Of a stretch of 64,000 bases of DNA, positions 42,337-44,520 are shown piece by piece. A model generated the notes under the pieces. The model had not been told where the DNA came from. It made no database searches and worked only from the letters and a program-made list of their open reading frames with translations. Position 1 is the stretch's first letter, and each line of letters opens with the position of its first letter. Source of the DNA: Rodentibacter caecimuris (GTDB lineage: Bacteria; Pseudomonadota; Gammaproteobacteria; Enterobacterales; Pasteurellaceae); NCBI RefSeq assembly GCF_001019715.1, contig NZ_BBXJ01000001.1, positions 124,001-188,000 of the forward strand. Reading direction: 5' to 3'. Made by a program: the position numbers and the translations under genes.

Positions 42337-42364
42337 AAAGTGCGGTTAAAATTAACCGCACTTT
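42337..42364. terminator. Uptake-signal hairpin after gyrA
   Basis: AAAGTGCGGTTAA and TTAACCGCACTTT form a 13-bp stem around a very short loop between gyrA and the small lipoprotein gene, which converge. Confidence 0.82.
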
Positions 42365-42519: not shown

Positions 42520-42709
42520 GACATCTACCTTTGTTTACTATGATTAAACCGCTGCGGATTCTAACATAATCTCGGTACGCCAACCACTCCCGTAAAAATC
42601 CGATATATCCAAAATCATCTTATCATTCATTTTCAAACAACTTAGATTTGCCACAAACATACTGTAATAACTTGATAAAATACGCCATCCCCTCTACAAT
42701 GCACGCCTT

Positions 42710-42773
42710 ATGTAGTTCGCAAACCTCCTACATGGACGCATTAAAATATAACTGCGCCCTAACAAAACTAGGT
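42710..42773 (+). promoter_or_regulatory. preQ1-I-type riboswitch with an inserted hairpin, upstream of queC
   Basis: P1 is a perfect 6-bp stem, ATGTAG (42710-42715) with CTACAT (42728-42733), and its loop TTCGCAAACCTC resembles the class I preQ1 ligand loop (UCGCAGUAACC in the well-known Thermoanaerobacter RNA). The A-rich tail TAACAAAACTAGGT (42760-42773) resembles that RNA's UUAACAAAACAAGG. ACCT in the loop (42723-42726) can pair with AGGT (42770-42773), the Shine-Dalgarno seven bases before queC. Unlike the simple class I form, an extra stem GGACGCA/TGCGCCC (42734-42740 with 42753-42759, one mismatch) sits between P1 and the tail. Gene context supports preQ1. Confidence 0.8.
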
Positions 42774-42779
42774 ACTAAA

Positions 42780-43466
42780 ATGAATATTTCAAACCCAAAC
42801 CATAACCGTAAGGCGGTCGTGATCTTTTCCGGCGGGCAAGATTCCACCACCTGTCTATTTCAAGCCATAGCCGATTACGGCAAAGAAAATGTCGAAACTA
42901 TCACCTTTCAATATGGTCAGCGACACGCCGTTGAGCTAGAAAAAGCACAGTGGATTGCCCAAGATCTTGGCATAAAACAAACCTTAGTTGATACATCCGT
43001 TATAAAAGCCATTACCCATAACGCTTTAATCGATCAACAAACCAAAATCGAACAAAAAAATCACGAACTGCCAAACACCTTTGTCGATGGTCGAAATGCC
43101 TTATTTTTACTTTATGCGGCAATTTACGCAAAGGGGCAAGGGATTCAAGACATCATCACAGGAGTATGTGAAACAGATTTTAGCGGTTATCCCGATTGCC
43201 GTGATGTTTTCGTCAAGTCGATGAATGTGACGCTCAATCTTGCCATGGATTACCAATTCAATATTAAAACGCCTTTAATGTATCTTACTAAAGCCCAAAC
43301 TTGGCAACTTGCTGATGAATTAGGCGTGTTAGATTACGTTCAACAGCATTCCCATACTTGCTATGAAGGCGTGGAAGGCGGCTGTGGTAACTGCCCGAGT
43401 TGTGAATTACGCAACAAAGGGTTACAACAATATTTGCGACAAAAGGGCGGTGAAAAAAATGTTTAA
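42780..43466 (+). CDS. queC: QueC, 7-cyano-7-deazaguanine synthase
   Basis: A 228-residue ATP-dependent enzyme turning 7-carboxy-7-deazaguanine into preQ0. The PP-loop [11 protein letters not shown] is at residues 16-26, and the C-terminal zinc site has [18 protein letters not shown] (four cysteines). I choose ATG 42780, seven bases after the SD that the riboswitch masks; the longer frame overlaps the riboswitch. Its stop overlaps queD by eight bases. First gene of the queCDE operon. Confidence 0.95.
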
Positions 43467-43884
43467 AATTTCCAAAGAGTTCAGTTTTGATATGGCGCAT
43501 TTATTAGATAATCACGATGGTAAATGCCAAAATCTACATGGACACACTTACAAATTACAAGTGGAAATCACCGGCGACTTGCACGAAAATGGGGCGAAAA
43601 AATCTATGGTTATGGATTTTTCCGATTTAAAAAATACCGTGAAAAAAGCCATTTTAGATCCCATGGATCACGCTTTTATTTACGATCAAACCAGTGAACG
43701 GGAAAGTAAAATCGCCGCATTATTGCAAGAACTAAATTCAAAAACTTTTGCCGTACCTTTTCGCACGACCGCTGAAGAAATGGCTCGATTCATTTTTAAC
43801 CGATTGAAATATGATGAAAAACTCGCGGTTTCAGCAATCCGTTTGTGGGAAACTCCCACTTCTTTTTGTGAATATTCGGAGTAA
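43459..43884 (+). CDS. queD: QueD, 6-carboxy-5,6,7,8-tetrahydropterin synthase
   Basis: A 141-residue protein of the 6-pyruvoyl-tetrahydropterin synthase family. MAHLL at about residue 12 carries the first zinc His; [19 protein letters not shown] gives the catalytic Cys and the other two zinc histidines. MDHAFIYD and [12 protein letters not shown] are family segments. It converts dihydroneopterin triphosphate in the queuosine pathway. Translation begins inside the queC 3' end (ATG 43459). A GGAG for queE overlaps the end. Confidence 0.93.
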
Positions 43885-43923
43885 AGTGCGGTGAAAAATC
43901 AAGCGGTTTTAAAACCGCACTTT
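43883..43923 (+). repeat. Uptake-signal inverted pair across the queE start
   Basis: AAAGTGCGGT (43883-43892) and ACCGCACTTT (43914-43923) are inverted. The first contains the queE GTG start (43891) and the end of the queD stop. Inside the loop, GCGGTTTTAAAACCGC (43903-43918) is a perfect 16-bp palindrome that competes with the longer stem. Pairing either way could affect queE initiation; that is inference. Confidence 0.6.
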
Positions 43924-44520
43924 AATATTGTGGAAATTTTTGAAAGCCTGCAAGGGGAAGGCTTCAATACGGGTATGCCCAGCATTTTTGTTCGTTTTGG
44001 TAAATGTAATCTCGCCTGCCCTTGGTGCGATACGCCTTATAACCAATTTGAACGCTGGTCTGCTTCACAGATTCTGGCAAAAGTGCGGTCGTTTTCGGCG
44101 AAGAATATTATCATCACCGGTGGCGAACCCACCATTGTGCCCAAAATTGAATTGCTACTCGATCAATTCAAAACCGACGGCTATTTTCTCGCCATTGAAA
44201 CCAACGGCTTAAAAGCAATTCCGCCACAAATCGACTATATTGCCACCAGTCCAAAGCGTCTTTATATGCACAAATACGAGCAACGTTGCATTGAATCTGC
44301 CGATGAAGTACGCGTTGTAGCAGATGAAAATGTCTTACCTTTTTGTGAACTGATAGAACAAAAAATCCGTGCGCAACACTATTATCTCTCCCCTTGTGAC
44401 ATTGACGGCAAAATGAATTTACTGGAAACCATCACTCAGTTAGGCAAACTCAATCAGCGCACGAATAAGCCCAAATGGCAATTAAGTTTACAGACTCATA
44501 AACTAGTGGGCATTGAATAA
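43891..44520 (+). CDS. queE: QueE, 7-carboxy-7-deazaguanine synthase
   Basis: A 209-residue radical-SAM enzyme. The N-terminus NIVEIFESLQGEGFNTG is typical, and the cluster motif is CNLACPWC (three cysteines, C-x3-C-x2-C). TGGEPTI and ETNG segments bind SAM. It makes CDG from carboxy-tetrahydropterin. The start is a GTG at 43891 with GGAG ten bases upstream; no in-frame ATG precedes the first conserved residues. It is the last gene before a strong terminator. Another uptake signal lies inside (about 44080). Confidence 0.92.
   Translation: MKNQAVLKPHFNIVEIFESLQGEGFNTGMPSIFVRFGKCNLACPWCDTPYNQFERWSASQILAKVRSFSAKNIIITGGEPTIVPKIELLLDQFKTDGYFLAIETNGLKAIPPQIDYIATSPKRLYMHKYEQRCIESADEVRVVADENVLPFCELIEQKIRAQHYYLSPCDIDGKMNLLETITQLGKLNQRTNKPKWQLSLQTHKLVGIE

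Follow-up and report, generated by a model that had tools for sequence, protein, structure and literature searches.

What kind of RNA lies just before queC in Rodentibacter caecimuris, and what is an extra hairpin doing in the middle of it? The window (the whole stretch of DNA that was analyzed, 64,000 nt) comes from a genome of 2.72 Mb; the QueC encoded there shares 97% identity with the protein of Rodentibacter genomosp. 1. As read from the sequence, a preQ1-I element spans positions 42710 to 42772 (+ strand, as do the genes and leader segments below), directly 5' of queC-queD-queE. The initial annotation had named these three queuosine genes, and NCBIfam agrees. queC (42780 to 43466) matches TIGR00364 with 281.4 bits (cut-off, 150.3), and queD (43453 to 43884), which overlaps the end of queC, matches TIGR03367 with 105 bits (cut-off, 89.25). 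queE (43891 to 44520), which has a GTG start, is assigned by its best match, TIGR04508, at 97.2 bits, below the cut-off of 240; all five matches listed for it are QueE models, and it scores under their cut-offs.

A consensus scan placed a promoter-like TTGATA-17-TACAAT at 42672 to 42700 (+ strand). The scan gave 1 site against a shuffle mean of 3.5, and such sites are no rarer in shuffles, which makes it weak alone. That a transcript from it would begin just before P1 is only suggestive. Farther upstream, 3' of gyrA, there is a terminator-like inverted repeat, AAAGTGCGGT...ACCGCACTTT, at 42337 to 42364; its arms contain what we take to be the H. influenzae uptake signal core. The P3 stems described below are unlike this repeat.

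A type I preQ1 riboswitch

Class I preQ1 riboswitches are split into types by the bases before the P1 3' strand, UC in type I and AC in types II and III (PMC11625349). Type I also has UU after the P1 5' strand and CUA in the tail (PMC11625349, PMC8752633). In the window, ATGTAG (42710 to 42715) and CTACAT (42728 to 42733) pair as the perfect 6-bp P1 of the initial annotation, within the 5 to 6 bp of type I. They enclose the 12-nt loop TTCGCAAACCTC (RNA, UUCGCAAACCUC; 42716 to 42727), which corresponds to positions 6 to 17 in Carnobacterium numbering. The tail TAACAAAACTAGG (42760 to 42772) begins with the A-rich strand L3, UAACAAAA (42760 to 42767), which is conserved in relatives, as is an AAAACUA that starts within L3 and extends to 42770. 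It ends in CUAGG (42768 to 42772), equivalent to C31, U32, A33, and G34 in the numbering of PMC8752633 together with the ribosome-binding site AGG; the 3' end of UAACAAAACUAGG lies 7 nt upstream of the queC AUG (ATG at 42780), as read from the sequence.

The type I bases are all there (U42716 U42717, U42726 C42727, C42768 U42769), and UC is found where type II has AC. The bases that contact the two preQ1 molecules in the Carnobacterium structure (U6, U7, U16, C17, A30, and C31; PMC8752633) are also all present at matching places. The H. influenzae queC leader, L010, has a loop identical to that of the window and shares AAAACTAGG; a Hin type I switch, possibly of another sequence, has a KD of 52.9 nM and an N of about 2 (PMC8752633). 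The window element would presumably bind two preQ1 cooperatively as well. The initial annotation had likened the tail to the Thermoanaerobacter RNA, a comparison that does not hold up: the T. tengcongensis riboswitch is type II (PMC11625349, PMC8752633), and the window, with UU, UC, and CUA, is type I.

What about the proposed loop-tail pairing of ACCT with AGGT, said to hide the Shine-Dalgarno sequence? The type I structure that has been solved uses another register, with a C8-A12-U32 triple, A33 with G9 and A11, and a probable G34-C10 pair (PMC8752633). Elements of both forms were compared in a set of 98 found by a separate regular expression, which comprises 36 long forms (with a P3 hairpin), 57 short forms, and 5 intermediate ones in neither group. 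Three or four of the four ACCT/AGGT pairs are possible in 31/36 long and 55/57 short elements. Loop position 15 is A in 5/36 and U in 3/36 long elements and A in 2/57 short ones, and the tail does not follow with a matching change. It is also doubtful that a type I switch would hide the Shine-Dalgarno sequence, since occlusion in this type is reviewed as weak or indirect (PMC11625349); translation is attenuated with the ribosome-binding site little buried directly (PMC8752633, PMC11625349).

How does Rfam see this leader? Over the whole window, no family reaches its cut-off. Between 42600 and 42860, RF00522 (preQ1) is the only Rfam family up to an E value of 10, at 18.1 bits and an E of 0.18; RF01054 (preQ1-II) and RF02680 (preQ1-III) give no match there up to the same limit. 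The models of types I to III reportedly go back to McCown et al. in 2014. The class check proposed in the initial annotation singled out the expected family, at a score below the cut-off of 39 bits. The match is full length and carries a 27-nt insert. At that cut-off, 16/20 short-form loci are recognized, the four failures being Neisseriaceae queC leaders (L048, L050, L059, and L061), and 0/20 long-form loci are; those left below it include queC leaders of Rodentibacter, Pasteurella canis, and the Actinobacillus group. When the thresholds are relaxed, RF00522 gives six long-form loci 21.1 to 38.2 bits (cut-off, 39); the family is recognizable in them, and it is the Rfam cut-off, and not the model, that hides the better long forms.

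Might the leader merely resemble a preQ1 riboswitch by chance? The score below the cut-off would fit, but the low score accompanies a 27-nt insert in a full-length match, place, loop, and core are as in short forms that pass Rfam, and the queuosine-gene context recurs across families; we regard chance as extremely improbable. The class I core put forward in the initial annotation is borne out by the type I bases, by P1 covariation (below), and by RF00522 as the sole family, and the element is very probably a preQ1-I type I riboswitch.

A paired insert in a near-fixed register

In one respect the leader departs from the H-type layout, in which L3 follows directly after P1: the A-rich strand is separated from P1 by P3, a 26-nt inserted hairpin (GGACGCA/UGCGCCC; 42734 to 42759) recognized by folding and comparison. 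Its 5' arm, GGACGCA (42734 to 42740), and 3' arm, TGCGCCC (42753 to 42759), flank a 12-nt AU-rich loop, TTAAAATATAAC (42741 to 42752). The initial annotation had described such a hairpin, flush with P1 and ahead of the A-rich tail, and sequence, folding, and comparison all uphold it. The stem it gave is present, yet not as perfectly paired as implied: A42736 stands opposite C42757, a mismatch that leaves it short of a perfect 7 bp. R. mrazii has a G-C pair at this place. The RNAfold structure has three more pairs and a bulge within the 12-nt loop.

Alone, the window P3 folds at -6.0 kcal/mol, a stability reached by 4/200 dinucleotide shuffles (p = 0.013 with 1000 shuffles); for the P1 hairpin, 1/200 shuffles is equally stable. 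The whole 81-nt leader is not unusual in a plain MFE fold, with 29/200 shuffles folding equally well. An MFE pairing of an upstream GCCU (42705 to 42708) with AGGU (42770 to 42773) was set aside; the upstream bases vary in relatives, and the GCCU may lie outside the transcript. The comparative evidence, namely, P1 covariation and P3 pairing in one register, is stronger than the folding evidence.

The initial annotation had named absence of covariation in P1 or the extra stem among relatives as grounds for abandoning its reading. P1 covaries in 29 short-form relatives, with 3/5 pairs changed on both sides, and P3 pairs across unrelated stem sequences, so the reading survived this check. Since MAFFT misaligned the tails of mixed short and long leaders, P3 was scored alignment-free by register from both anchors and without folding: the pentamer that follows base 6 of the P1 3' strand was set against the pentamer that ends 5 nt before AAAACUA. 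(Six of 43 rows proved to be short forms, given a second AAACTA within the region, and were left out.) The register is nearly fixed, running from six nucleotides of P1 strand through P3 and five nucleotides to AAAACUA, and the stem sequences differ between lineages. At least 4/5 outer pairs form in 32/37 distinct elements and 5/5 in 27/37; registers off the stem diagonal have only 0 to 4 of 37 elements. For the 26 distinct arm pairs, the mean is 4.38 pairs, against 2.25 after the 3' arms were swapped (10000 swaps; standard deviation, 0.23; maximum, 3.23). With one element for each of 18 lineages (a manual choice to which one genome contributes two), it is 4.44 against 2.20, and 0/20000 swaps are as high.

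Some elements deviate. In the window and L003, the spacer is 4 nt, and in that register 4/5 pairs form (2 in the common one); L136 and L153 pair elsewhere, off the register shared by the others. Among distinct inserts, 33/35 fold into a hairpin, 26/35 with p < 0.05 against 1000 dinucleotide shuffles; RNAfold gives none for L163 or for L164, whose insert is 10 nt, and L152 reaches only -0.4 kcal/mol. In the fixed register, P3 length ranges from 12 to 31 nt, and sequence and stability vary widely. Compensation is seen at close range. In a genus of the Pasteurella group, five genomes have GAACAA/TTGTTC (one with an A-C mismatch) and a sixth, G110, has GGGCAA/TTGCCC. An Oligella genome, G884, has two queC-like genes (L144/L081 and L148), each with its own long-form leader, and their P3 stems differ by a compensatory change, CGCTC/GAGCG versus CGTTC/GAACG. 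A sixth Watson-Crick pair, which puts P1 flush with P3, occurs in 16/36 long against 3/57 short elements (Fisher p = 8e-6, phylogeny ignored). Taken as a whole, P3 is very probably real.

Distribution of the long form

How widespread are such leaders? The survey retained 80 of the 95 confirmed queC loci from named genomes, and a regular expression found the element in 58 of the 80, 50 short and 8 long; L040 was added as long by eye and L049 as short by covariance search. (A pattern with a misplaced N, which matched only other loop lengths, is excluded from the counts.) The short form is the ordinary one in most related queC leaders found. The long forms belong to Rodentibacter (L003 and L004), Pasteurella canis (L020), Pelistega (L038), a Neisseria MAG (L040), Actinobacillus ureae (L042), Actinobacillus genomosp. 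2 (L044), an Alcaligenaceae MAG (L076), and Oligella (L081).

A covariance model, R1, built from 29 short-form leaders, matches 118/140 Pasteurellaceae genomes at an E value of ≤0.1, a few weak matches looking spurious (the only one in G113, for example, is in coding DNA [L124]). R1 detects long forms weakly and only via the P1 loop; it missed those of G070 and G110, which were found by a pattern with loop and tail fixed and the insert free, no pairing being required inside it. This pattern occurs in 20/140 Pasteurellaceae genomes from 5 genera (a reversed control pattern gave 5 matches), and all 20 sequences listed are recognizable as long forms. In the genus g2, 9/9 sampled genomes have kept it. 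The family of the Neisseria MAG has 23 matches in 20/83 genomes (8 control matches), 11 of them, in 10 genomes, with a P1 of at least 4 pairs, so that 12/23 fall outside that set. For the family of the Alcaligenaceae MAG, the figures are 13 matches in 11/268 genomes (6 control matches), with such a P1 in 10 matches from 8 genomes and 3/13 outside. An even draw over the phylum gave 8/398 genomes and 5 control matches, with P1 in G000, G003, and G341; one over the class gave 2/369 (G000 and G341) and 2 control matches. One further gammaproteobacterium, outside the Pasteurellaceae, Neisseriaceae, and Alcaligenaceae, also has a P3-bearing form. An even draw of Bacillota gave 0/309 genomes, which is not proof of absence there.

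Genes 3' of long forms are queC, queF-II, or a preQ0/preQ1 transporter gene. NCBIfam identifies QueF-II after L136, L153, and L171 and the transporter after L152 and L163; most other downstream proteins show the QueC start motif, and L175 and L181 lie at contig ends. Genome G902 has long forms before both queC and queF (L157 and L171), with unrelated P3 stems.

Several loci deserve mention in their own right. L128 (G073:C1:378400-379200), found by the model, is a long form whose P3 has 7 bp, and it precedes a shortened, queC-like frame of 66 aa that lacks the middle of the gene; G073 has a short-form element elsewhere. On G088:C11, two short forms, L130 and L131, lie about 3.2 kb apart, and only a 36-aa frame was found after the second. 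L015 (CABDVE010000001.1), titled Pseudomonas stutzeri NCTC11607, has a Pasteurellaceae-like queC and leader; its QueC is 81% identical to that of the window and groups among Haemophilus in the tree, so the label may be wrong. Six Listeria loci (L028, L031, L033, L036, L037, and L045) encode a QueC 75 to 77% identical to that of the window, as close as or closer than many from Neisseriaceae, a hint of gene transfer. Judged by eye, the DNA directly ahead of queC in this set ends in a queF-like frame.

Origin of the insert

A quick tree was built from 109 QueC proteins, 40 of them with the long form, and parsimony requires 10 changes on it. L137 and L183 were relabeled from short to long after inspection of their sequences. 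Support is weak for 40/106 inner branches, certain rows are truncated, and the count does not separate gains from losses. For these reasons, and because leaders may recombine apart from the gene, the result is read as several changes of state. A short-form Rodentibacter, L002, groups with long-form species. Its QueC is 97% identical to that of the window, its leader has no P3, and the DNA upstream of the gene is different, as it would be had the leader been lost or exchanged.

What might P3 do?

The mechanism can be sketched from the close match between the core and the queC leader of H. influenzae. Between P1 and P2, two preQ1 molecules would bind, the pseudoknot would close beside the ribosome-binding site, and synthesis of QueC, QueD, and QueE would fall, so that preQ1 represses translation as in the short form. 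P3 would stack under P1 and convert the H-type pseudoknot to a three-stem, HLout-like one, bracing P1 and setting the entry point of L3 with the pocket untouched. The embedded P4 of class II can be deleted with little effect on binding but is critical for kinetics (PMC11625349); by analogy, P3 would alter how fast the RNA folds or how large an obstacle the ribosome meets. Our main reading, which we consider probable, is a class I, type I preQ1 riboswitch that acts on translation of the queCDE operon, with bracing as the most likely role of P3. Against this stand the 18.1 bits, some very weak P3 stems, and a leader that is not unusually stable. The idea that P3 compensates for a weak P1 is not supported, P1 being no weaker in long forms (Mann-Whitney p = 0.50).

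Is P3 a functional modulator or tolerated baggage? The former seems to us an evenly balanced proposition. The latter, with a chance only just short of even, would make P3 a neutral, variable insertion at the solvent-facing P1/L3 junction that has no regulatory effect and keeps its pairing since an unpaired insert would disturb the aptamer. Many riboswitches tolerate nonconserved stem-loops at specific sites (PMC2258182), the sequence, length, and stability of P3 vary widely, and Rodentibacter species with and without it share near-identical QueC. However, the near-fixed junction register and the commoner sixth P1 pair suggest more than tolerance, and g2 has retained P3 in every genome sampled. 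A role in transcription, as a terminator or as a pause hairpin that gives preQ1 time before the ribosome-binding site is made, is improbable. P3 does lie between the aptamer hairpin and the tail, and the class I switch of B. subtilis is described as pausing (PMC11625349), but the bases after P3, UAACAAAA, contain no U-run and a terminator scan was empty there, and the terminator version is rejected.

Returning to P3 as a brace, a wider proposal is that class I has repeatedly been rebuilt into HLout-like three-stem pseudoknots at one junction, the hairpin being a selected tuner of folding speed or repression that is convergent with P4 of class II. This we offer tentatively, as somewhat more apt to fail than to hold.

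Relation to known riboswitches and implications

The nearest known system is preQ1-I type I itself (RF00522; Carnobacterium, H. influenzae, and N. gonorrhoeae in PMC8752633), with which the window shares P1, the 12-nt loop with UU and UC, the CUA tail, the A-rich L3, and the position before queC. It differs in the 26-nt hairpin at the P1/L3 junction and in its sub-cut-off Rfam score; the class I examples in the review are given as H-type (PMC11625349). P4 of preQ1-II (RF01054) is likewise an extra hairpin, which follows the 3' strand of the stem that carries the loop and precedes the tail that pairs with this loop, in an HLout fold (PMC11625349), whereas pocket, sequence, and phylum (Bacillota) differ, and P4 is orthogonal to the stack where the register of P3 suggests stacking on P1. 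The variable stem-loops of larger riboswitch classes are alike in being nonconserved and at a fixed site, but the excerpt of PMC2258182 describes them in general and does not name preQ1 as a case. Three-stem pseudoknots such as the fluoride riboswitch, preQ1-II, and viral frameshift elements (PMC11262651) also embed one stem and, preQ1-II excepted, are unrelated to the window in sequence or ligand.

In the open-access literature searched, no title or opening of an abstract names an embedded hairpin in a class I preQ1 riboswitch, nor is one mentioned in the excerpts of PMC11625349, PMC10622847, PMC11262651, PMC2258182, and PMC8752633. The P3-bearing form is therefore rated as new as a variant of a known riboswitch class, and the original papers or their alignments may mention such a hairpin.

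Overall, the presumed ligand and gene set are unchanged by P3. There is an annotation gap, in that the standard cut-off overlooks long-form preQ1 switches in several bacterial groups. The long form also shows how an H-type aptamer can adopt the layout of another class. What an embedded hairpin does has so far been asked of class II, through P4; pairs that occur in nature, for example the window and L002, allow the question to be put to the class I pseudoknot. If P3 is indeed a selected tuner, these bacteria would offer a natural series, with and without the hairpin, for one of the smallest aptamers.
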